Origin: Alphaproteobacteria bacterium
GTDB taxonomy: Bacteria > Pseudomonadota > Alphaproteobacteria > Reyranellales > Reyranellaceae
DNA length: 64,000 bases
Assembly: GCA_017308235.1 (NCBI GenBank)
Contig: JAFKFL010000007.1
Location: 124,001-188,000 of the forward strand
Direction of reading: 5' to 3'
Shown: piece after piece, positions 1,397-41,047 of the stretch
How the letters are laid out: each line of letters begins with the position of its first letter
Numbering within the stretch: the stretch's first letter is position 1
Program-made: the position numbers and the translations under genes
The notes under the pieces: model-generated
Databases searched by the model: none
Told to the model about the DNA's origin: nothing
The model's input: only the letters and a program-made list of their open reading frames with translations

Positions 1397-2406
1397 GACC
1401 GGACCTCGCTTTTCTCCGAGGGCGTCACCAGGGTCGACGGCGGCGGCCTGCCGCCCTGCGTCCGGTGCAAGGGCTCCTCCCAGCCACGCAGCTTCGCCTT
1501 GAGGAAGCCCGCGATCCCGCCTGGCATGAACAGCACGAAGCCGACGAGGATCGCGCCAAAGGCAATCTCCTGGACCCCTTTCACTGCGCGCAGGGCTTCC
1601 AGGATCACGACGATGGCGCCGGCGCCCAGGATCGAGCCGACGATGGACCCCAGGCCACCGACCACGATCATCGACTTTTGCAGGACCATCTGGAACAGAT
1701 CGTACCCCTCGGGCGACACGAAGTTCAGAAGCGCCGAATAGAGGCCGCCGGCAATGCCGGCATAAAAGCCGCTGATGCCGAAGGCGAGGGCCTTGTAACG
1801 TAGCAGATCGACGCCGAGCGACTGGGCCGCGATCTCGCTGTCGCGCACCGCGACAAAGGCGCGGCCAAAGCGCGAGCGCACCGCATTCTGCGCCAGGACG
1901 AACAGGACGACCACGAACAGCAGGCTGAGATAGTAGAGGCCGATCTCCTTCGAAAAGGGCAGGGGCGCGAAGGAGATGGGCGGAGTCTTGAAGCCGCCGG
2001 CGCCATAGGTCACCGTTTCCCAGTTCAGGAACGCCCATTGCGTGAACTGCGCGAAGGCGAGGGTGGAGACGGCGAGATAGAGGCCCTTGAGCCGCAGTGC
2101 CGGCAGGGAAATCGCAAGGCCGACGGCTGTCGCGATGACCGCGCCTGAGGGAAAGGCGAGCCAGAACGGCCAACCCAAACGGACCTGGAGCAGGCCGGTC
2201 GTGTAGGCACCGATACCGAACATGGCGGCGTTGGCGAAGGCAAGCTGGCCAGTATAGCCCACCAGAACATTGAGCCCGATCGACAGCAGCACGTAGATCA
2301 GGATCGTGTTTGCGATGAAGAGATAGTAGTCGTTGACGAGGAACGGGGTGACCGCCGCGACCACGAACATCGCCAGCAGGACATTTCGTCGGCCAAACAG
2401 CGTCAT
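1393..2406 (-). CDS. Branched-chain amino acid-type ABC transporter permease, LivM-like
   Basis: This 337-residue inner-membrane permease has 8-10 hydrophobic segments. It shows the LivM hallmarks: LNVLVGYTGQLAFANAAMFGIGAY near the N-terminus (read in two parts, LNVLVGYTGQ and FGIGAYTTG), the cytoplasmic loop RDSEIAAQSLGVD, and VVGGLGSIVGSILGA near the C-terminus. The ATG start at 2406 lies 2 nt from the LivH stop and gives the normal N-terminus; open frame upstream belongs to a shadow of other genes. The C-terminal 30 residues are hydrophilic (ending SEKSEVRS). It pairs with LivH to form the transmembrane channel. Confidence 0.93.
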   Translation of the reverse strand: MTLFGRRNVLLAMFVVAAVTPFLVNDYYLFIANTILIYVLLSIGLNVLVGYTGQLAFANAAMFGIGAYTTGLLQVRLGWPFWLAFPSGAVIATAVGLAISLPALRLKGLYLAVSTLAFAQFTQWAFLNWETVTYGAGGFKTPPISFAPLPFSKEIGLYYLSLLFVVVLFVLAQNAVRSRFGRAFVAVRDSEIAAQSLGVDLLRYKALAFGISGFYAGIAGGLYSALLNFVSPEGYDLFQMVLQKSMIVVGGLGSIVGSILGAGAIVVILEALRAVKGVQEIAFGAILVGFVLFMPGGIAGFLKAKLRGWEEPLHRTQGGRPPPSTLVTPSEKSEVRS

Positions 2407-2408
2407 GC

Positions 2409-3290
2409 TCAAACCTGCCGCAGCTTGCCGAAGCTCAGCAATCCGGTCGGACGCAACACCAGCACGAACATGATGACGATGAACGCCGAGACTTCCATGA
2501 AGCTCGAGCTGATGTAGCCACCGGCCAGCGCCTCGATGACGCCGATGCAGAAGCCGCCCAATACGGCGCCGGGAAGGCTCGTGAGACCGCCCAGGACGGC
2601 AGCAGCGAATCCCTTGATGAAGAACGAGAAGCCCATGTCCGGATAAAGCAGCGTCAGCGGCGCCATCAGTACGGCCGCTGCCGCCGCGATGGCGGCGCCG
2701 GTCCCGAAGGAAAGCATGTAGATGCGATCGATGCGGATGCCGACCAGCCGCGAGGCCTTGGCGTTGTCCGCCGTGGCCTGCATCATCTTGCCGGCACGCG
2801 TCAGGCGAAAGAACGCCGCGAACACCAGCATGATGACAATCGCGCCGGCAAGGACGGCGATCTGCTGCGGGATCACCATGATGCCAGCGATGGTCACGGG
2901 GTCGGGTGACGTGATGGGCGGGAAGGACAGGTAATCGCCCTTGCCGCCCCAGATGACGCGCGCCGCGCCGCGGAACACGAAAGCCAGGCCGATTGTCGCG
3001 AGCACGAGGCCGACGACGTCGGCGTTCCTCATCGGCCGTGCGGCGATCAGGTTCGTGACGGCGCCCAGTAAGAAGCCGACCGCCACCGCGATCGCGAACG
3101 AGGGCAGGTATCCCATGCCCATCTGCACATGCAGCATCCAGGCCACGAAGCCCGAGAACATGAACAACTCGCCATGGGCGAAGTTGATCATGCCCGTCGA
3201 CTTGTTCACGACCACAATGCCGAGTGCGATCAGGGCATAGAGCGACCCCGTCGTCAGTCCGCTCAGCAGCAGATAGGTGAAAAGCTCCAA
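2409..3290 (-). CDS. Branched-chain amino acid-type ABC transporter permease, LivH-like
   Basis: This 293-residue permease opens with the LivH pattern LLLSGLTTGSLYALIALG, followed by VNKSTGMINFAHGELFMF. Near the end it has AAVLGGLTSLPGAVLGG and the typical tail VLVLRPTGLLSFG. The start is TTG at 3290 because no ATG fits the conserved N-terminus. The Shine-Dalgarno is poor, and the start lies only 6 nt from the stop of the binding-protein gene, so translational coupling is likely. It forms the membrane channel with LivM. Confidence 0.93.
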   Translation of the reverse strand: MELFTYLLLSGLTTGSLYALIALGIVVVNKSTGMINFAHGELFMFSGFVAWMLHVQMGMGYLPSFAIAVAVGFLLGAVTNLIAARPMRNADVVGLVLATIGLAFVFRGAARVIWGGKGDYLSFPPITSPDPVTIAGIMVIPQQIAVLAGAIVIMLVFAAFFRLTRAGKMMQATADNAKASRLVGIRIDRIYMLSFGTGAAIAAAAAVLMAPLTLLYPDMGFSFFIKGFAAAVLGGLTSLPGAVLGGFCIGVIEALAGGYISSSFMEVSAFIVIMFVLVLRPTGLLSFGKLRQV

Positions 3291-3296
3291 GGACCG

Positions 3297-4478
3297 CTAC
3301 TCGACCTTGGTGACTCCCAGGACGCGCACCGGTTTGCCCGGCTCCTTGGCGATCCAGACCGGCGCCTTGTTGCAGCGATGATCGCCTGTCGTGCAGGTGA
3401 TGCCTGCGCCATAGACATCGGTCTGGAAGTCGGTGAGCTTGTCGAGAGCCGCCACGAGACCGTCGCGCGTGAGGTCCTTGCCGGCGCGCTTGAGTCCTTC
3501 GACCATGACCTCGGCGCTGCCGATACCGAAGAGATTGAAGACCGAGAGCCGGTCGCCCGGGAACTTCGCCTCGATCGCCTTGCGCCACTTGTCGACGGCG
3601 GGATCTTCGGGCGTGTAGCGGACCATCGAGATGGTGCGGAACTGTGTCGTGGCGCCAGGAGAGCCCACCTGGTCCTCGAAGGCGGCGGGATCGGCGATGC
3701 CGCTTTGTCCGATCGCCAGCGGCTTGAAGCCGAGCTTCTGGGCGTCACGCATGAAGATCGCCGCGGGCTTGGGATAGAGCACGATCAGCACCGCATCGGC
3801 GTTGGCGGCCTTGAGGCGGAGCACCTGTGCTGTTGCGTCGTTGGCATCGGGCGCCATTTCCTCGTCCGCCACTGGCTTGATGTTCTTCTTCTTGAACGCC
3901 TCCATCAACGGCGTGTATCGGGCGCGACCCCAGGCGTCGCGCATGGAAACGACGGCGATGCGCTTGGCATTCTGGGCAAGAGCGTATTCGAGCTGCGCCT
4001 GGCTCTCGATCGTGGAGGTGAGCGCGGTGCTGAAGATCGCAGGCGCCACCGGCGTGGTGATGCCGTCATGGACCGAGGCCATCACGATCAGCGGGATCTT
4101 CGCCTGGTCGAGGGCCTCGCGCGCGGCAAAGGTCGCGTTGCTGCAGCCGCCGCCGATCAGGGCGAACACATTGTCCTCTGACACCAGCTTCTTCACCGCG
4201 CCGATTGCCGCCGCCGGGTCACATCGATCGTCCTCGCGCACCAGCTGCAGCTTGCGGCCGTTGATGCCGCCCGCCGCATTGACCTGGTCGAACACGACTT
4301 CGATGCCGTTCATCGGCAGCTTGCCATAGAGGTAGCCGGGGCCCGTCAAGGCGCCGAACGAACCGATCCTGATCGTGTCGGCTGTGACGCCGGGCACCTG
4401 CGCCTGGACTGCTTGCATGGCTGCGACTGTCATCAAGAGACCGATCGCTGCGCCTTTGACTCCCTGACCTGTTGCCAT
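3297..4478 (-). CDS. Periplasmic solute-binding protein of Liv-type ABC transporter
   Basis: This 393-residue type I periplasmic binding protein is first in its operon. Residues 1-27 form a Sec signal peptide ending AVQAQ. The mature protein begins VTADTIRIGSFGALTGP, the Peripla_BP_6 start, and later shows GGINGRKLQLVREDD and ALIGGGCSNATFAA. The ATG at 4478 is preceded by a GGGAGGGGG run (about 4482-4490 on the plus strand as its complement), a good ribosome site. Longer open frame upstream is not coding. The C-terminus contains a Cys pair around CTTGDHRC, plausibly a disulfide in the periplasm. The ligand is unknown. The divergent operon of enoyl-CoA hydratase and HyuAB suggests a carboxylic acid, amide or cyclic-imide compound. 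Confidence 0.92.
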   Translation of the reverse strand: MATGQGVKGAAIGLLMTVAAMQAVQAQVPGVTADTIRIGSFGALTGPGYLYGKLPMNGIEVVFDQVNAAGGINGRKLQLVREDDRCDPAAAIGAVKKLVSEDNVFALIGGGCSNATFAAREALDQAKIPLIVMASVHDGITTPVAPAIFSTALTSTIESQAQLEYALAQNAKRIAVVSMRDAWGRARYTPLMEAFKKKNIKPVADEEMAPDANDATAQVLRLKAANADAVLIVLYPKPAAIFMRDAQKLGFKPLAIGQSGIADPAAFEDQVGSPGATTQFRTISMVRYTPEDPAVDKWRKAIEAKFPGDRLSVFNLFGIGSAEVMVEGLKRAGKDLTRDGLVAALDKLTDFQTDVYGAGITCTTGDHRCNKAPVWIAKEPGKPVRVLGVTKVE

Positions 4479-4566
4479 AACCCCCTCCCGAATACCCGCT
4501 GGGCTCTTACAGAAGCTGTGAGTGCAACTTCCGTTCCCTTTGCCATTCCCCTGGCGCGGTGCTGTC

Positions 4567-4581
4567 GTGTATACAGTACAC
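4567..4581. promoter_or_regulatory. Palindromic operator candidate in divergent promoter
   Basis: An inverted repeat GTGTA-N5-TACAC surrounds an internal GTATAC in the 144-bp gap between the binding-protein gene (minus) and the enoyl-CoA hydratase operon (plus). FadR/FCD-type GntR proteins typically bind short GT..AC palindromes, and the plus operon ends with such a regulator (10249-11022). The assignment is inference; the palindrome itself is read directly. Confidence 0.5.
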
Positions 4582-4622
4582 AAGTTTGACGTCCTATCAA
4601 CCGTTGAACCGGGGGTGAATGC

Positions 4623-5414
4623 GTGGCGGCCATCGTCGAGGACATCGTTGTCGAAGAGGCGGGGGGACTTGCCACCGTCACGCTCAACCGGCCAGCAAAA
4701 CGCAATGCCGTGTCGTTTGCGATGTGGCGGCGCTTGGCGGAAATCTTCTCCGGCTTCACGTCGGGCAGCGGGCCGCGCGCAGTGATCCTCACCGGCGCGG
4801 GCGGCCATTTCTGTGCCGGCGCCGACATCTCCGAATTCCCCACCGTCCGCGCCAATGCGGCGATGGGCAAGGTCTACGAGGAGGCGGCCGACGGCGCGAC
4901 CCGCGCCGTGCGCGATTGCCCGCTGCCCACCATCGCCGCCATCTCGGGATATGCCATGGGCGGCGGCTGCGGCCTCGCCCTCGCCTGCGACTTCCGCGTC
5001 GGCGATGCCAGCACGCAGATGGGCATTCCCGCCGCACGGCTTGGCATCATCTATGGCCCGCTCGATTGCTCGCTGCTGCTGCGGCAGGTGGGGCTCGCGA
5101 ATGCCAAGCGCGTGCTTTTCTCCGGTCGCGCGTTCGGCCTGGCCGACTGCCGGCAGCTCGGCCTCGTCGACATGGTGGCCGAGAAGGGCAGCGCGTTGGA
5201 GGCGGCACAGTCCTTCGCCGCGGATCTGTCGAACAATGCGCCGTTGTCGATTGCCGGCGCCAAGCTGGTGCTGGATGCGCTTGTATCGGGACACGCCGAG
5301 GCACGCGCCAGCGAGATCGAGGCCACGATCGCACGCGCGATGGACAGCGCCGATTATCGCGAAGGCGGCGCCGCTTTCGCGGCCAAGCGGTCCCCTCGTT
5401 TCATCGGGCGCTGA
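4623..5414 (+). CDS. Enoyl-CoA hydratase/isomerase family protein
   Basis: This 263-residue crotonase-fold enzyme probably hydrates or isomerises an acyl-CoA in the cytoplasm. It shows VTLNRPAKRNAVS near residue 20, the oxyanion-hole segment GHFCAGADISEF (about 60-75), and YAMGGGCGLALACDFRVG (about 103-120). The start is GTG at 4623, preceded by a GGGGGTG run. It is the first gene of the plus-strand operon with HyuA (35-nt gap), HyuB, SDR and GntR. With these partners it may process the acid released by the HyuAB-type enzyme, but the precise substrate is not readable. Confidence 0.9.
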   Translation: MAAIVEDIVVEEAGGLATVTLNRPAKRNAVSFAMWRRLAEIFSGFTSGSGPRAVILTGAGGHFCAGADISEFPTVRANAAMGKVYEEAADGATRAVRDCPLPTIAAISGYAMGGGCGLALACDFRVGDASTQMGIPAARLGIIYGPLDCSLLLRQVGLANAKRVLFSGRAFGLADCRQLGLVDMVAEKGSALEAAQSFAADLSNNAPLSIAGAKLVLDALVSGHAEARASEIEATIARAMDSADYREGGAAFAAKRSPRFIGR

Positions 5415-5449: not shown

Positions 5450-7480
5450 ATGAGCTGGTTGGGCGTCGATGTGGGGGGAACGTTCACCGATCTGGTCTTT
5501 CTCGACCGCGAGGGGGGCCGCTTGCAGGTTCTGAAGACACCCTCGACGCCGAGCGACCAGTCGGAGGGAATCCTTGTGGGCATCGGTCGGTTGTCGCTTG
5601 AGGCGAAGAGCCTGGAGCGCATCGTCCACGGAACGACCGTTGCGACCAACACCGCGCTCGAGGCCGACGGGGCTCGGCTTGCTGTGCTGGCGACCGAGGG
5701 CCATCGCGACGTGCTGGTGGTCGGCCGCGGCAATCGCATGGCGATCTACAATATCAAGGCGCGACCCAACCGACCGCTGGTGCCGCGCTCGCGGTGCGTC
5801 GAGGTACGTGAACGGCTGGGCGTCGACGGCGCCGTCGCGATCCCGCTCGATGAGGAGAACGTGGCCGCGGTCGGCCGCCACCTCGCCGAGGAGAATGTCG
5901 AAGCCGTCGCCGTCTGCTTCCTCCATTCCTATGCCAATGGCGATCACGAACGCCGTGCCGCGGAGATCCTGTCGCGCTTCCTGCCCAAGGCCGTGATCAC
6001 CACCTCGTCGGAGGTCCTGCCGGAATATCGCGAGTACGAGCGCTTCTCGACGACCGCGCTCAATGCCTATGTCGCGCCGCGCATGCGCCGTTATCTCGGC
6101 GAGCTGCGCAACCGGCTGGGATCGGCCGGCATCTCGGCATCGTTGTCGATCATGACCTCGAACGGTGGAACCCTGCCGGCCGAGCGCGTCGAGGCGATGC
6201 CGGTGCTGTCGATGCTGTCGGGTCCGGCGGCCGGCGTCATCGCCGCGAGCTTCGTCGGCCATGCGGCCAATTTTCCCGACATCGTTACCTGCGACATGGG
6301 CGGCACATCGACCGACGTTTGCCTGGTGCGAGGCGGCGAGTTCAGCATGACGACCGACGGCAAGGTCGCGGCCTTTCCAGTCAAGATCCGCCAGATCGAC
6401 ATCAACACCGTGGGCGCCGGCGGCGGCAGCATTGCCGCCGTGTCGGGCGGCTTCCTGACGGTCGGGCCGCGTTCGGCGAAGGCCTATCCCGGCCCGGCTT
6501 GCTTCGGCCGCGGCGGCACCGAACCCACCGTGACCGACGCCAACGTGGCGCTGGGACGGCTGGGCACGGACCAACTATTAGGCGGCGAGATCAGGCTCGA
6601 TCACGCGGCGGCGACAGCGGCCGTGGCGCGTCTCGGCCACGAACTCGGGCTCTCCACCGAACGGATGGCCGAGGGCATCCTGCGCATCGCCGTGGTGTCG
6701 ATGGCTGGCGCAATCAAGGAAGTGTCGGTGTTGCGCGGCATCGATCCGCGCGACTTCGCGCTCCTGTCCTATGGCGGCGCGGGACCGCTGCAGGCGGCGG
6801 CGATCGCCGACGAGCTCGGCATGCGCACCGTCGTCGTGCCGCCGATGCCCGGCAATTTCTCGGCCTTTGGGCTTCTGGTGGCCGATGTGCGCCGCGATTT
6901 CGTGCGCACCCGGGTCGCGACCGTCGATACGCTTTCGCCGGCCGATGTGCAGGCGATGCTGGCTGAATTGATCGAAGTGGGCGAGGCCGAATTGGAGGCC
7001 GCAGGGTTCCCACCCGACCGTCGCCGCTTCGCCGCCTCGCTCGACATGCGTTACTCAGGCCAGTCCTTCGAGCTTTCCGTTCCGGTCGAGTCCGATCTCG
7101 CCGACATGGCGAAGCTCGTAAATGGTTTCGAGACGGTCTACCGGACGCGGTACGGCGGAACGACGACCGCACCGATCGAGATCGTGAGCTATCGCGTCGC
7201 CGCTTGGGGCCTGTCCGACAAGCCCGCCCTGCCGAGTGTCGATACCGCCGGTCATACGATGGAAGCCGCCCAGCGCGGCCAACGGTCGATCGTCTTTGAC
7301 GGCACGTCGCACCCGACGCCGATCCTCGATCGCGAACGGATGCCCATAAACGCCGCTGCCTTCGGGCCCGTCGTCATCGAAGAGGCCGGCTCCTCGACTA
7401 TCGTGCCGCCGAGCTGGTCGGTCGAGCGCGACCGGATCGGTTGCCTGGTGCTGCGTCGTCGAGAGGAAAGCAATCAATGA
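5450..7480 (+). CDS. Hydantoinase/oxoprolinase subunit A (HyuA-like, N-methylhydantoinase/acetone carboxylase beta family)
   Basis: This is a 676-residue ATP-dependent subunit. The N-terminal phosphate-binding motif is DVGGTFTDLVFLD (residues 7-19), with TVATNTALE at about 65 and the second actin-like phosphate motif CDMGGTSTDVCLV near residue 282. TVGAGGGSIAAV and GPACFGRGG follow. The ATG at 5450 has a clear CAGGAGA site 9 nt upstream; the longer open frame before it overlaps the hydratase gene in another frame and is not used. Its stop overlaps the HyuB start (ATGA). HyuA/HyuB pairs use ATP to open cyclic amides (hydantoins, 5-oxoproline) or to carboxylate ketones; the reaction cannot be told from sequence alone. 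Confidence 0.94.
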   Translation: MSWLGVDVGGTFTDLVFLDREGGRLQVLKTPSTPSDQSEGILVGIGRLSLEAKSLERIVHGTTVATNTALEADGARLAVLATEGHRDVLVVGRGNRMAIYNIKARPNRPLVPRSRCVEVRERLGVDGAVAIPLDEENVAAVGRHLAEENVEAVAVCFLHSYANGDHERRAAEILSRFLPKAVITTSSEVLPEYREYERFSTTALNAYVAPRMRRYLGELRNRLGSAGISASLSIMTSNGGTLPAERVEAMPVLSMLSGPAAGVIAASFVGHAANFPDIVTCDMGGTSTDVCLVRGGEFSMTTDGKVAAFPVKIRQIDINTVGAGGGSIAAVSGGFLTVGPRSAKAYPGPACFGRGGTEPTVTDANVALGRLGTDQLLGGEIRLDHAAATAAVARLGHELGLSTERMAEGILRIAVVSMAGAIKEVSVLRGIDPRDFALLSYGGAGPLQAAAIADELGMRTVVVPPMPGNFSAFGLLVADVRRDFVRTRVATVDTLSPADVQAMLAELIEVGEAELEAAGFPPDRRRFAASLDMRYSGQSFELSVPVESDLADMAKLVNGFETVYRTRYGGTTTAPIEIVSYRVAAWGLSDKPALPSVDTAGHTMEAAQRGQRSIVFDGTSHPTPILDRERMPINAAAFGPVVIEEAGSSTIVPPSWSVERDRIGCLVLRRREESNQ

Positions 7481-9531
7481 GCATCGATCCCATCACGCTC
7501 GAGGTCCTGACCCAGGGACTGATCTCCATCGTCCGCGAGATGCGCGCGACGGTCTGCCGGACGGCGAGCTCGGTCGCGATCTACGACGCCAAGGATTTTT
7601 CCTGCGGCCTGTTCGCGCCGGACAGCCAGGTGGTGGCGCAATCGGAGGATATCGGCTCGCACGTCGTGCCGCTGCCGTGGTCGGTGCGTTCGGCGATGGA
7701 GAAATTCGGCAACGATCTCGCGCCCGGCGACGTCATCCTGTCCAACGATCCCTACACCGGCGGCACGCATCTCAACGACGTCACCGTCATCTTCCCGGTC
7801 TTCGAGGGGGGCAGGCTGATCTTCTTCCCGGCGGTGCGCGCCCATTGGGCCGACGTCGGCGGCATGGTGCCGGGCAGCATGTCGGGCAAGGCGACCGAGA
7901 TCTACCAGGAAGGCGTGCGCATCCCGCCGGTCAAGATCCAGGAGGCCGGCCGCTTCAACCAGGCGGCGCTCGACATCCTTCTGTCCAACATGCGCGTGCC
8001 CGAGGAGCGGTTGGGCGATCTCGAGGCCAGCCTCGCGTCGTGCCGGGTGGCGCAGAAACGCATCCATGAGATCTGCGCCCGCTACGGTGTCGACACACTC
8101 CTGGAAGCAGTGCGCCTCGATCTCGACCGCTCGGAAGCGCGGATGCGGGCCTGCATCGCTGGCTTGCCCGACGGCGTCTATCGGTTCGAGGACTACCTCG
8201 AGACCTACATGGGCGGCCGCTTCGAGCCGCTGTTGATGCCGCTTGCGCTGACGGTGGCGGGCGATCGCATGATCGCGGACTTCACCGGCGCTTCGCCGCA
8301 AGTACCGTTCCCGGTCAACTCGACGGCGGCGGTGACGGCGGCTTCGGTCTTCATCGCGGTCAAGTCGATCTTCGATCCTGCCGCACCGCTCAACCAAGGT
8401 TCGTTCCGGCCGATCGAGGTGATCGCGCCGCCGGCCTCGATCGTCAACGTGCAGCGACCGGCGCCCGCCGGATCCCACGGCGAGATCCGCAAGCGCGTGA
8501 TTGCGACCATGGTCGGCGCCCTCTCGCAGGTCGTTCCCGACCTGGTCGCGGGCGATCTCTGCCGGACCTCGTTCCACAACCTGATCGGCGGCTACGATGC
8601 CAAGCGCGGCCGCGAATGGGTCCACTACGAATGGTCGGCCGGCGGCAACGGCGCATTTCGAGAGAGCGACGGACCGAGCGCCATGGCGACCATCGATTGG
8701 GGCGATCTCGTCACTGTGCAGTCGACCGAAGTCATCGAGACTCGCATGCCCCTGGTGGTGGAGACCTCGCGGCTTGCCGTCGATTCCGGCGGCGCCGGCA
8801 CGACCCGGGGCGGCCTGTCGATGCAGCGCTCCATGCGGGTGCTGGCGGCTGATTCGCGCTATTCGCTGCTGTCGGATGGCGCGGTTGTCCCGGCGTTCGG
8901 CGTCATGGGCGGCCTCTCCGGCGTGCAGGTCGGGTCGTGGGTCGAGAGCGACGGCGCCATCGAAAGCTTTGACACGCCCGGCAAGGTCGCCGGCCATCCG
9001 GTCGGCGACGGCGGCATCGTTGTCGTGCGCTCGGCCGGCGGCGGCGGCTACGGCGATCCTCTGCTGCGTGATCCGGCCGAGGTCGCGGAGGATGTTCGCG
9101 AAGGCTACGTCTCGCGCCAGGCGGCGCATGATCTCTACGGTGTGGCTCTCGACACCCGGAGCGCCGTCGATCCTGTGGCAACCGAGACGCTGCGCCGGCG
9201 TCTGCGCGAGGCACGGTTCGCCTTGCCGACCGTGCTGGTCGAGGAATCGTACGAGCGCGGCGCGGTCAGCAAGCGGCGGATCTGTCGCCTGCATCCCAGG
9301 GACGCCGCTGCGGCGCATCTGCAGGCCGACGACCTCGTCGAGATCGATTCGCGCCGCGCCGCGCCGTTGCGCGCATGGTTGCGGATCGACCCCACGATCG
9401 CGCTGGGCACATTGCCGATCGATCATGCTGGCCTCGAGATCCTGAGGGCCTCTGCCGGGGAGCGCCTGGAGGTGCGACGGATCGCGACCGTCGTCATGCC
9501 CCAGGCGCGGCTGGCCGAAGCGGCTGAATGA
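7477..9531 (+). CDS. Hydantoinase subunit B (HyuB-like) with C-terminal extension
   Basis: This 684-residue partner subunit of HyuA starts MSIDPITLEVLTQGL, the standard HyuB opening. It contains SNDPYTGGTHLNDV (about residue 86), RAHWADVGGMVPGS (about 120), and the C-terminal glycine-rich VRSAGGGGYGDPL (about 510). Homologues usually end soon after the segment DGSAVDxxAT. Here about 130 further residues follow, including a stretch resembling a small beta-barrel (LQADDLVEIDSR, LRAWLRIDP). The ATG overlaps the HyuA stop by 4 nt, and the next gene starts in the same way at 9528, so strict co-translation is expected. Confidence 0.93.
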   Translation: MSIDPITLEVLTQGLISIVREMRATVCRTASSVAIYDAKDFSCGLFAPDSQVVAQSEDIGSHVVPLPWSVRSAMEKFGNDLAPGDVILSNDPYTGGTHLNDVTVIFPVFEGGRLIFFPAVRAHWADVGGMVPGSMSGKATEIYQEGVRIPPVKIQEAGRFNQAALDILLSNMRVPEERLGDLEASLASCRVAQKRIHEICARYGVDTLLEAVRLDLDRSEARMRACIAGLPDGVYRFEDYLETYMGGRFEPLLMPLALTVAGDRMIADFTGASPQVPFPVNSTAAVTAASVFIAVKSIFDPAAPLNQGSFRPIEVIAPPASIVNVQRPAPAGSHGEIRKRVIATMVGALSQVVPDLVAGDLCRTSFHNLIGGYDAKRGREWVHYEWSAGGNGAFRESDGPSAMATIDWGDLVTVQSTEVIETRMPLVVETSRLAVDSGGAGTTRGGLSMQRSMRVLAADSRYSLLSDGAVVPAFGVMGGLSGVQVGSWVESDGAIESFDTPGKVAGHPVGDGGIVVVRSAGGGGYGDPLLRDPAEVAEDVREGYVSRQAAHDLYGVALDTRSAVDPVATETLRRRLREARFALPTVLVEESYERGAVSKRRICRLHPRDAAAAHLQADDLVEIDSRRAAPLRAWLRIDPTIALGTLPIDHAGLEILRASAGERLEVRRIATVVMPQARLAEAAE

Positions 9532-10271
9532 CCTTCGCCGAGGATCTCGACTTCACCGGCCGCCGCATCCTGGTGACGGGTGCGGCGAATGGTTTTGGCG
9601 CGGCCATGGCCGATCTTCTCAGTGCGGCGGGCGCGCGACTGGTTTTGGCCGACATCGAGAAGGAGCCGCTCGCCGAGGTCGCGGCCCGTTGCCGCGACGC
9701 CGAGGCCCATGTCTACGACCAGGCCGACCCGGCATCTGTTGCGCGCCTCGCTGAGGCGGCAGGCCCGGTCGATACGCTGATCAACAACGCCGGCATGCTG
9801 CTCGCCAAGCCGTTGCTGCAAACCAGCTTCGAGGAGATGCGCCGGATCATCGATGTCGATTTCGTCGGCGCGTTGCGGCTGATGCAGCTCGTCGCGGCCG
9901 GCATGGTCGAGCGCCGCCGCGGCGTCATCCTGTCGATCGGCTCGCAGACTGCGTTCTCGGGCGGCGAGAACCGGGCCGTCTACGCCGCCGCCAAGGCCGC
10001 GATCTCGCAACTCACCCGGTCCGCAGCGGTGGAATGGGGGCCGTATGGCGTGCGCGTTCTCTGTCTTGCCCCCGGCCGGTCGCTGACACGGATGACGCGC
10101 GAGGTCGTGAAGGAAGGACAGTCGGGCGATCGCGGCCTGGCGCGCGTGCCGCTCGGCCGCTGGGGAACGGCGGAGGAGATCGCGAAGATGGCCATGTTCC
10201 TCGTCTCGGATGCTGCGTCCTACGTGACCGGAGAGACCGTTATCGCGGATGGCGGCTATGTCGTCGGCTAA
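9528..10271 (+). CDS. Short-chain dehydrogenase/reductase (SDR)
   Basis: This 247-residue classical SDR has the nucleotide-binding motif TGAANGFG (about residue 17), LINNAGML (about 85), a catalytic serine in SIGSQTAF, and YAAAK (about 154). It ends with SYVTGETVIADGGY, the usual cofactor-lid and C-terminal region. Its start overlaps the HyuB stop by 4 nt and its end overlaps the regulator gene. It probably oxidises or reduces an intermediate of the HyuAB/enoyl-CoA hydratase pathway. An aspartate after the second strand (VLADIE) suggests NAD rather than NADP preference. Confidence 0.92.
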   Translation: MTFAEDLDFTGRRILVTGAANGFGAAMADLLSAAGARLVLADIEKEPLAEVAARCRDAEAHVYDQADPASVARLAEAAGPVDTLINNAGMLLAKPLLQTSFEEMRRIIDVDFVGALRLMQLVAAGMVERRRGVILSIGSQTAFSGGENRAVYAAAKAAISQLTRSAAVEWGPYGVRVLCLAPGRSLTRMTREVVKEGQSGDRGLARVPLGRWGTAEEIAKMAMFLVSDAASYVTGETVIADGGYVVG

Positions 10272-38801: not shown

Positions 38802-38909
38802 CCTCACCCTGAGGAGCGCGCGTGAGCGCGCGTCTCGAAGGGTGGCACCAACACTTTGTGCGCTGCCCACCCTTCGAGACGCGGCCTGCGGCCGCTCCTC
38901 AGGGTGAGG
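38802..38909. repeat. Nested palindromic repeat element, copy 1
   Basis: The outer arms CCTCACCCTGAGGAGC (38802-38817) and GCTCCTCAGGGTGAGG (38894-38909) are exact inverse complements. Inner arms CGTCTCGAAGGGTGG (38831-38845) and CCACCCTTCGAGACG (38867-38881) are too. A second copy stands at 62387-62489. The element lies just after the yghU stop and ends 14 bp before the TctC-type start codon. As RNA it folds into a long double hairpin that could end or stabilise the upstream transcript. Confidence 0.9.
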
Positions 38910-38923
38910 GGAGAGACTTCACC

Positions 38924-39898
38924 ATGTCCTGTACACGGCGCGCTGTTGTCGCGACTCTTTTGTTGAGCCTTGGCGCACGGCGCGTCTTGGCCCAGAGCAG
39001 CTACCCGAACAAACTCATCAGACTCATCGTGCCGTTCGCGCCGGGCGGCAATGCGGACCTGACGGGACGACTCTTCGGCGACGCTCTGTCGAAACGCCTC
39101 GGTCAGCAGGTCGTGGTCGACAATCGAGGTGGCGCCGGCGGTGCCATCGGTGCGGAAGTCGCAGCCAAGTCGCCGGCCGATGGCTATACGATCGTTCTTG
39201 GATCGACCGGTACGTTCCTGGTGAGCCCGCGCATGACGGGTGGCGAGCCGCCTTACACGCTCGCGAGCTTCGCGCCAGTTGCTTTGCTCAGCACCTCGCC
39301 GATGGACATCGTCGTCAATGCGGCGAGCCCGATCAAGGACTGGGCGGGCATGCTGGCGCAGCTGCGTGCCAAGCCGGGCACGGTCACGATCGGTCATCCC
39401 GGAAACGGCAGCACCAACCATCTCGCCATACTGCGGCTGCAGAAGGCGCTGGGTGTGACGTTCAACGTCATTCCCTACAAGAGTAACGGGCCTGCGCTGA
39501 ACGATCTGCTGGCGGGCCAGATCGATTCGGTGATGGACCAGATTCCGGCGTCGATCGGCCATGTGCGCAACGGCCGGCTCCGCGCCATCGCCGTCACGAC
39601 GTCACAGCGGGCGGCGCAACTTCCCGATACGCCGACGCTCGCCGAAACAGGCGTCAAGGATTTCTCGGCCACCACGCCGCTGGTGCTGATGGCGCCGGCA
39701 GGAACGCCAACGGAGATCGTGAAGAAGCTCAATGAAGCCGTCGCCGATTCCCTGGCCGATCCTGCGGTGAAGGACAGGCTTTCCGAGCTTGGGTCGGAAA
39801 CCCAGGCCCTGACGCCGGATGCTTTGGCGGCGTTCTTGCAGAACGAAAATACGACGATCGAGGAGCTCAGCCGCAGCGGGCTGTTGAAAGTCGAGTAG
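38924..39898 (+). CDS. Tripartite tricarboxylate transporter-type binding protein (Bug/TctC family)
   Basis: A 324-residue periplasmic binding protein. The signal peptide (about 1-22, with TRRAVVATLLLS) ends near VLAQSS. The mature part begins YPNKLIRLIVPFAPGGNADLTGR (key PFAPGG), then VVVDNRGGAGGAIGAEVAAKSPADGYT, all Bug hallmarks. No TctA or TctB membrane gene is present, as is common for this expanded family. The ATG at 38924 follows GGGGAGAG, which partly lies in the end of the palindromic repeat. Ligand unknown, probably a carboxylate. Confidence 0.92.
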   Translation: MSCTRRAVVATLLLSLGARRVLAQSSYPNKLIRLIVPFAPGGNADLTGRLFGDALSKRLGQQVVVDNRGGAGGAIGAEVAAKSPADGYTIVLGSTGTFLVSPRMTGGEPPYTLASFAPVALLSTSPMDIVVNAASPIKDWAGMLAQLRAKPGTVTIGHPGNGSTNHLAILRLQKALGVTFNVIPYKSNGPALNDLLAGQIDSVMDQIPASIGHVRNGRLRAIAVTTSQRAAQLPDTPTLAETGVKDFSATTPLVLMAPAGTPTEIVKKLNEAVADSLADPAVKDRLSELGSETQALTPDALAAFLQNENTTIEELSRSGLLKVE

Positions 39899-41047
39899 TC
39901 ACGCCTGCCAGCGCTGAGGTGAGAAAAGCTCGGCCAGTGTCGTGACCGCACCGTCCGCTTCGGCACGATCGATCGTCTCGTTGGTGTCGCCAAAGCCCTT
40001 CATGTCGCCGCCCTCGACGGCCTGGACCACGATGCCGTCACGCCGCGGCACGACGTAAACCTGGCGGTACGACAGCCCGTAGTGCACCCCCGACTGCGGG
40101 ATCAGCCGGGCGATCTGTCCCCGCACCGGTGTGACGGTTTCGTCCTTCCACAACGCGCGGGCGCCATAGCCGGTGCAATTGATCACCGCTCTCATGCCCA
40201 GCGACGCGATCTGCTGGGGCGCCTGGAAGTTTGCATATTTGAACTGGCCGCCGGCGGCGAAGAAGTCAGCCAGCAGCGTGTGTCCATAGTCGGAGATGTT
40301 GAAGATCATGTTCTCGCTGCGATAGACGGCATTGGCGCGAAACGGCGCCATTTCGGCCGACAGCCGCCGCGCCCTCGGGACCAGGTCGGCGATGCGACGA
40401 TGATAATCTGCGAAATCCAGGCTTTGTGTCGGAGGAGGACTGCCGCTTCGCGGTTGGCCGTCAGCCGAGACGGAATAGAAGTCGGTCCATTCCACGGGAT
40501 CGCCGGGCAGGCCGAGATAGTCGCGGTGCGTCTTGAAGGACGTCCGCGCCATCTCTTCCCATAGGCTCGCGAACCCCGCCGGCGCCGCATCGGCGAGCGC
40601 GATGCGCGAGTCAGGTGTCCACGCTCCGGTGGCGCGCGCCGACCGCGTCTGCGGCAGTTGCTCGCGCGCGTAGATCGTCACCTTCGCGCCGGCGCGCTGG
40701 GCCAGGATCGCCGAGGTGAGTCCGAGAATGCCGCAGCCGATCACCGCGACCTCGCGCGGCTGGACCGACATCGCCTTGCGTACCACGATCTCGCTGGAGC
40801 CCCAGGAGAGCGACCAGCCGCTGCCGCCATGGCCGTAGTTGTGCACCACGAGGGTATTGCCGACGCGTTCGGCATCGAGTCTCGGTCCGGCGGCGCGGAA
40901 CGGCCTGAGGCAGACCGCGATGTCGAAGATGCGGTCCGTCTGCGCGCGGATGGGCACAAGCTGCTCGCCGCGGTAGCCGGACGCGGTCGTGCATCCGGCC
41001 AGCGATCCTCCGCCCAACACCAACGCCCGGCGACTCAGCATCCGCAT
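39899..41047 (-). CDS. Exported FAD-dependent D-amino-acid-oxidase-like protein, circularly permuted
   Basis: A 382-residue oxidoreductase. Residues 1-19 (SRRALVLGGGSLAGC) form a twin-arginine-like signal with lipobox LAGC, the lipid-bearing residue being C19. Segments normally at the end of D-amino-acid oxidases come first: RPFRAAGPR at 48-56 (substrate arginine region) and HNYGHGG at 69-75. The FAD motif GCGILG, normally at the N-terminus, is at 104-109. The chain then continues in the usual order through NCTGYGARAL and VRGQIARL to YVVPRRDG and stops where the normal C-terminal part would start. Start ATG at 41047 or 41041. It is convergent, with no gap, to the TctC gene. Confidence 0.85.
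   Translation of the reverse strand: MRMLSRRALVLGGGSLAGCTTASGYRGEQLVPIRAQTDRIFDIAVCLRPFRAAGPRLDAERVGNTLVVHNYGHGGSGWSLSWGSSEIVVRKAMSVQPREVAVIGCGILGLTSAILAQRAGAKVTIYAREQLPQTRSARATGAWTPDSRIALADAAPAGFASLWEEMARTSFKTHRDYLGLPGDPVEWTDFYSVSADGQPRSGSPPPTQSLDFADYHRRIADLVPRARRLSAEMAPFRANAVYRSENMIFNISDYGHTLLADFFAAGGQFKYANFQAPQQIASLGMRAVINCTGYGARALWKDETVTPVRGQIARLIPQSGVHYGLSYRQVYVVPRRDGIVVQAVEGGDMKGFGDTNETIDRAEADGAVTTLAELFSPQRWQA

Follow-up and report, generated by a model that had tools for sequence, protein, structure and literature searches.

A circularly permuted D-amino-acid oxidase fold in an alphaproteobacterial protein with a predicted export signal

D-amino-acid oxidase (DAAO) is a textbook flavoenzyme, whose chain has the FAD motif first and the HNYGHGG segment last. 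An open reading frame (ORF) in the window analysed here, a 64,000-nt stretch of an alphaproteobacterial genome of the family Reyranellaceae, carries these parts in the opposite order. Does it encode a natural circular permutant of DAAO, or is it a rearranged pseudogene? The initial annotation, made from the sequence letters, had proposed a permutant. Here, we followed up this proposal by sequence comparison, structure prediction, a survey of homologues and an analysis of gene neighbourhoods.

Segment order and predicted fold of the window protein

The ORF and its parts are located in the window as follows.

39899-41047, reverse strand: whole ORF, circularly permuted DAAO-fold protein of 382 aa with an ATG start; stop codon at 39899-39901
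40991-41047, reverse strand: residues 1-19, putative twin-arginine signal (R6 R7) and lipobox LAGC (C19), from sequence patterns
40769-40933, reverse strand: residues 39-93, one-time DAAO C-terminal segment (substrate-arginine strand, FAD-binding HNYGHGG strand, last helix), from phmmer; pLDDT 97-99
40880-40906, reverse strand: residues 48-56, RPFRAAGPR, with R48 aligned to human DAAO Arg283, from the phmmer alignment
40823-40843, reverse strand: residues 69-75, HNYGHGG, from the phmmer alignment and conservation columns
40754-40768, reverse strand: residues 94-98, short linker between the one-time C-terminal helix (77-93) and Rossmann strand 1 (99-103), from predicted secondary structure
39920-40759, reverse strand: residues 97-376, one-time DAAO N-terminal body (FAD Rossmann and substrate domains), from Pfam and VIA
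40721-40738, reverse strand: residues 104-109, GCGILG, FAD dinucleotide motif, from the sequence and conservation columns
40055-40081, reverse strand: residues 323-331, substrate-side strip, with residue 331 at the human DAAO Tyr228 column, from the multiple alignment

The open frame reaches only 6 codons 5' of the ATG (388 codons in total), which rules out a hidden N-terminal body. The RPFRAAGPR, HNYGHGG and GCGILG motifs were found exactly where the initial annotation had placed them, and its claim that the C-terminal DAAO segment precedes the FAD motif was borne out by phmmer. The best match among PDB sequences was the DAAO 7ct4 (E = 9.8e-16), followed by human, pig and other DAAO chains and by D-aspartate oxidase chains. 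The match to 7ct4 consisted of two stretches in swapped order. Residues 44-96 corresponded to 7ct4 chain positions 324-379 (i-Evalue 2.1e-7), and residues 91-318 to positions 17-245 (i-Evalue 1.1e-4). An un-permuted copy of the window protein gave a single stretch, 3-349 of 353, on 7ct4 chain 26-376. The whole-sequence score did not gain from un-permuting (58.4 vs 61.1 bits); one collinear alignment replaced two.

The window protein combines the DAO fold and its GxGxxG FAD motif with an HNYGHGG-type FAD segment (H69 to G75) and a substrate arginine (R48), all of them features of the DAAO family. It departs from DAAO in the order of the chain. Pfam DAO (PF01266) matched with a whole-protein E of 1.5e-28 (100.8 bits, against a curated cut-off of 27.9), the best stretch being residues 100-378 on profile positions 2-299 of 353. 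The last part of the profile would correspond to residues 39-93. Names from NCBIfam were rejected, their matches being weak and far under the cut-offs (ThiO, 41.4 bits vs a cut-off of 250.8).

In a rotation test, the reference profile was built from six actinobacterial DAAO-like proteins of canonical order. The chains of eight permuted proteins, stripped of the signal region, were rotated to start at each position in turn, and for each protein the highest single-domain score was taken. Seven of the eight gained. The window protein rose from 48.8 to 98.0 bits, with an optimum start at residue 96 and a broad plateau at 88-222. Gains were also seen for L017 (125 to 178 bits), L110 (111 to 171), L186 (116 to 180), L127 (121 to 184) and L048 (69 to 109). 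The score of L109 went from 108 to 126 bits, with its optimum within the Rossmann part, and L112 showed no real gain (41.4 to 41.9 bits).

AlphaFold predicted the fold with high confidence from a 58-row alignment (pLDDT 92.9, pTM 0.89; all ten-residue blocks from 31 to 190 at 96-99), and with lower values from a 10-row alignment (pLDDT 81.4, pTM 0.82). The HNYGHGG segment had a pLDDT of 97-99. Along the chain, the model has a strand at 40-51, strands at 59-69, a helix at 77-93, the first Rossmann strand at 99-103 and a final helix at 361-374. In Foldseek, ranks 1-33 of the best 50 rows were all DAAO or D-aspartate oxidase (E from 2.8e-14 to 2.9e-9), and the next row had an E of 4.3e-6; sequential TM-scores were 0.53-0.57. 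In VIA, human D-aspartate oxidase 6rkf_A was matched with a Z of 20.7 (rmsd 2.9, 252 residues aligned) and DAAO chains with Z 18.8-19.8. Together these two families spanned Z 20.7-18.5; the next family reached 15.9, and no family in the VIA listing stood above them. The absence of other families from this listing carries no weight.

VIA aligned residues 98-377 of the model with human DAAO 1-269, leaving human DAAO chain 270-340 and model residues 30-96 as an unmatched pair. VIA is a sequential aligner and is blind to residues 30-96, so a chain 270-340 without a downstream partner is what a permutant is expected to give. That HNYGHGG occupies the FAD site, the other point on which the initial annotation could have been refuted, has indirect support from the pLDDT of this segment and from the unmatched pair. 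The order of elements in the model and the alignments place the cut in the loop between the last helix of the substrate domain and the arginine strand, at a predicted position of about 269-274 in human DAAO. A linker of about five residues bridges the former chain ends; the present ends are both in the loop that leads into the substrate-arginine strand.

Distribution and descent of the permuted order

A survey of homologues for the same motif order, suggested as a check by the initial annotation, yielded 123 distinct permuted proteins, including that of the window and with identical copies removed. Alphaproteobacteria and Acidobacteriota were the main sources. In 109 of the 123, 4 aa separated the two HMM envelopes. 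When repeat copies were included, 160 ORFs among 196 loci had both segments, 152 in permuted and 8 in normal order, the latter comprising L140, a weak match, and 7 DAAO-like controls of the canonical type. Most of the 196 loci were retrieved via permuted queries, and the ratio of 152/160 is therefore no census. A canonical query in Pseudomonadota retrieved 30 loci; 14 had both segments, and all 14 were permuted. The initial annotation would have been put in doubt by a second HNYGHGG-like segment at the C-terminus, and none of the 160 two-segment ORFs had two tail matches.

Of 61 genomes searched, 17 had strong matches (E < 1e-40), counting the window's own; one of these matches is truncated by a contig end. 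The permuted gene was also found in Reyranella massiliensis (NZ_HE997181.1), of the same genus. A scan of named genomes gave at least 594 pattern matches, 573 of which were confirmed as relatives. The best 80 of these 573, from Alphaproteobacteria, Acidobacteriota and some unclassified records, were permuted without exception (80/80). Matches at 1e-25 or better occurred in 20 of 398 genomes of a Pseudomonadota sample (own included) and in 10 of 149 genomes of an Acidobacteriota sample. Four permuted copies were observed in a single Acidobacteriota genome, G497 (L186, L192-L194).

The window gene and three homologues were compared by NG86, excluding the signal region. The dN/dS values were 0.17 (nearest homologue), 0.21 and 0.34. 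A rearranged pseudogene or an assembly artefact was rejected as an explanation and has a negligible probability, because 123 distinct ORFs, drawn from many assemblies, share the order, dN/dS is low and strong matches recur across genomes. Each segment occurs once, their order is swapped and conserved, and un-permuting restores one collinear alignment. The natural permutation of the DAAO order is almost certainly real. The proposal of a true circular permutation has thus held, on the shared order, the 4-aa linker, the dN/dS values and the confident fold prediction.

A tree was calculated by a quick method in the canonical register (98 rows, 336 columns). Near-duplicates had been removed, keeping 102 of 130 rows, and four further rows were dropped, three for long branches (L180, L124, L179) and one as partial (L013). 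Three groups were obtained: 5 canonical rows (support 100), a smaller, mostly signal-less permuted group of 5 rows (support 99) and a large exported permuted group of 88 rows (support 95). Each group corresponds to one change of label.

The simplest history is one permutation in the common ancestor of the exported and the smaller branches. The permutation might instead have arisen several times from different canonical DAAOs, as the distance between the two permuted branches (stem lengths 1.6 and 0.82) and the small number of canonical rows at hand would allow. We consider this unlikely, since the cut point and linker length are similar and the order label changes once on the tree. The canonical rows were only 5, all actinobacterial, and the program warned of long branches meeting there; the root and the single origin are therefore not proven.

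Predicted export signal, gene neighbourhoods and proposed function

The N-terminus of the window protein reads SRRALVL followed by LAGC, a twin-arginine motif and a lipobox by pattern match. An alignment of 10 rows showed no variation at R6, R7 and L16 and almost none at C19. By the same kind of pattern matching, a Tat-like RR motif was present in 117 of the 123 permuted proteins, and 78 of the 123 also had a lipobox. The six proteins without the motif were L109, L110, L113, L132, L124 and L065, the last with a frame truncated by a contig end. In the smaller branch, four of five rows had no motif, and the motif of L133 looks real. These patterns point to export and lipidation, giving a putative Tat lipoprotein held on the periplasmic side and probably anchored outside the inner membrane. 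The N-terminus, no longer tied to the first Rossmann strand in the permuted chain, would sit in the loop ahead of the arginine strand, a place that may accommodate a Tat lipoprotein signal.

The window gene is located between a convergent TctC receptor gene and a divergent gene for a luciferase-like monooxygenase. The TctC gene (tripartite tricarboxylate transporter receptor; 38822-39898, forward strand) has a stop codon directly abutting that of the ORF. Neither a cytochrome c nor a RidA gene neighbours the window gene. A downstream gene was called at 73 of the exported loci and lay on the same strand in 47. In 18 of the 73 its product had 133-208 aa and a single CxxCH motif, and the gene started at most 42 bp from the stop or overlapped it. 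A monohaem cytochrome c was directly downstream in 15/15 rows of one fully supported clade, which comprises Acetobacteraceae, sphingomonads and two unclassified alphaproteobacteria. The other 55 loci had no adjacent same-strand CxxCH gene of the counted kind, CxxCH being the only motif sought. Not counted as partners were the two-haem protein of L032, 815 bp away, and the opposite-strand CxxCH gene of L034. A Pfam scan of the downstream genes of 43 of 46 references (L053, L095 and L098 left out) found a cytochrome domain in 18 of the 43, which should be 17 of the 18 CxxCH partners plus L032. Upstream same-strand genes were mixed; 36 of 42 references were scanned, and 7 of these 36 had TonB receptor domains. 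No partner conserved across all members was found among the neighbours up- and downstream.

Several loci had other neighbours. In L078 (Bryobacterales F-183), a Rieske protein (6145-6615) is encoded next after the permuted gene, and then comes an ORF of 521 aa (6622-8187) that contains two CxxCH motifs; this may be a different route for electrons. A Kozakia plasmid cluster (L112, 1-11186) encodes serine hydrolases, an S9 peptidase, the permuted DAAO, cytochrome c, a CocE hydrolase and a TonB receptor, and looks like a peptide-use island. Also encoded in the cluster is a DAO-family enzyme of normal order, whose match spans almost all of the Pfam DAO profile. The next downstream gene encodes a hydantoinase/oxoprolinase in L071 (Sphingobium, 6307-9885) and L064 (a MAG, 1740-5306); in L092 (Asticcacaulis, 6290-8296), it encodes an S9 peptidase.

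In the signal-less branch, a gene for a TPP-dependent enzyme was next downstream in 3/3 plasmid loci, from Bradyrhizobium, Rhizobium and Nonomuraea.

L110 1360-5687: signal-less permuted DAAO and TPP-dependent enzyme
L113 1473-5699: signal-less permuted DAAO and TPP-dependent enzyme
L109 2854-5673: signal-less permuted DAAO and TPP-dependent enzyme

In two rhizobia, on conjugative plasmids, a BBE-type FAD oxidase precedes the permuted gene. The signal-less loci possibly encode a route from amino acid to oxo acid to aldehyde, and the recurrent TPP-dependent enzyme supports oxo-acid chemistry.

Judging from sequence and gene context, the window protein is probably an exported FAD-dependent amino-compound dehydrogenase that came about by natural circular permutation of DAAO; we hold this reading with moderate confidence. 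The protein would fold with FAD in the cytoplasm, be exported by Tat and end up as a lipoprotein on the periplasmic side. Its substrate there would be an amine with a carboxylate group, a D-amino acid or a relative of one, held by R48 through the carboxylate and oxidised at the C-N bond. The imine formed would hydrolyse to a 2-oxo acid. Electrons would be handed to a periplasmic carrier, which would feed them from amino compounds into respiration. In the clade of acetic acid bacteria and sphingomonads, the carrier would be the dedicated cytochrome c. The neighbourhood of the window gene, where neither cytochrome c nor RidA is encoded, and the mixed upstream genes of other loci weigh against this reading.

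The permuted and exported protein may instead have stayed a true oxidase that, like DAAO, uses O2 and would release hydrogen peroxide, here into the periplasm. Its nearest solved relatives are oxidases, and most exported loci (the 55 above, as judged by the CxxCH motif) have no adjacent same-strand cytochrome c of the counted kind. We find an oxidase rather improbable in view of the tight linkage to cytochrome c throughout one clade and the Rieske protein next to the permuted gene of L078, and we retain the dehydrogenase as the preferred reading.

The substrate was approached through the active-site columns, in human DAAO numbering obtained by counting along the phmmer alignment. Arg283 is taken by us to be the carboxylate-binding substrate arginine and Tyr228 the active-site tyrosine. 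The R48/Arg283 column was Arg in 101 of 102 rows, including 73/73 in branch A of the exported proteins, to which the window protein belongs. The Tyr228 column was Tyr in 5 of 7 canonical rows (2 gaps), 5/5 rows of the smaller branch, 9/17 rows of exported branch B and 4/73 rows of branch A. The window protein itself has Tyr at this position (Y331). Within branch A, W78 was invariant (73/73), Y323 was Tyr in 69/73 and Y327 in 66/73 rows, and the LGGT strip of the other branches was replaced by VVQ-type residues among the branch-A rows listed.

The loss of Tyr228 in most of branch A makes the substrate uncertain, and it may be no simple D-amino acid. The window's branch could have shifted to an L- or N-substituted amino acid, a peptide-linked amine or an opine. 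The tyrosine loss, the invariant W78 and the VVQ-type strip fit such a shift, as do the long stem branch (1.92) and the peptidase or hydantoinase neighbours in some genomes. Pulling the other way, the Arg283 equivalent is kept in every branch-A row. We regard the shift as a serious possibility that falls somewhat short of probable. Similarly tentative is the wider evolutionary scenario, in which a single ancient permutation may have founded a separate family whose exported branch became a periplasmic dehydrogenase linked to the respiratory chain; its active site would have been rebuilt, and one clade would have a cytochrome c of its own.

Comparison with known systems

Four features are new beyond the initial annotation: a predicted export signal, the breadth of the distribution, a cytochrome c partner that one clade has, and the absence of Tyr228 from most of branch A. 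No description of a natural DAAO permutant was found in the open-licence literature, among the matches listed. Passages of PMC3637537 and PMC4699246 do not describe a permuted DAAO, the string 'permut' is absent from the main text of PMC4699246, and a word search of PMC12667903 gave no match. All three annotated copies examined were named only 'FAD-dependent oxidoreductase'. With such generic annotation, and with a best Pfam stretch that starts at residue 100, the rotated order is easy to miss.

A precedent for the gene layout comes from Gluconacetobacter diazotrophicus, where a Tat-exported L-amino-acid oxidase is reported to share one cluster with cccA and ridA (PMC5053998). As in the cytochrome c clade, an exported FAD-dependent amino-acid oxidoreductase is combined with a cytochrome c. 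The G. diazotrophicus lao gene was rejected as a family member, since that paper gives its product 533 aa and an amine oxidase domain (pfam01593), and thus another family than that of the window protein.

Glycine oxidase ThiO, sarcosine oxidase, opine dehydrogenase and other DAO-family enzymes are of the same fold class, with VIA Z values of about 14-16, below those of DAAO. The best matches in both sequence and fold are D-amino-acid oxidase and D-aspartate oxidase (PDB 7ct4, 2du8, 6rkf), which share with the window protein the two segments, the FAD motif, HNYGHGG and the substrate arginine. Compared with DAAO, the window protein has a rotated segment order and a predicted export signal, and its branch is mostly without Tyr228. 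The two form a natural pair, permuted and unpermuted, in which the bearing of chain order on folding, cofactor loading, export and oxygen reactivity can be addressed in a common flavoprotein fold.
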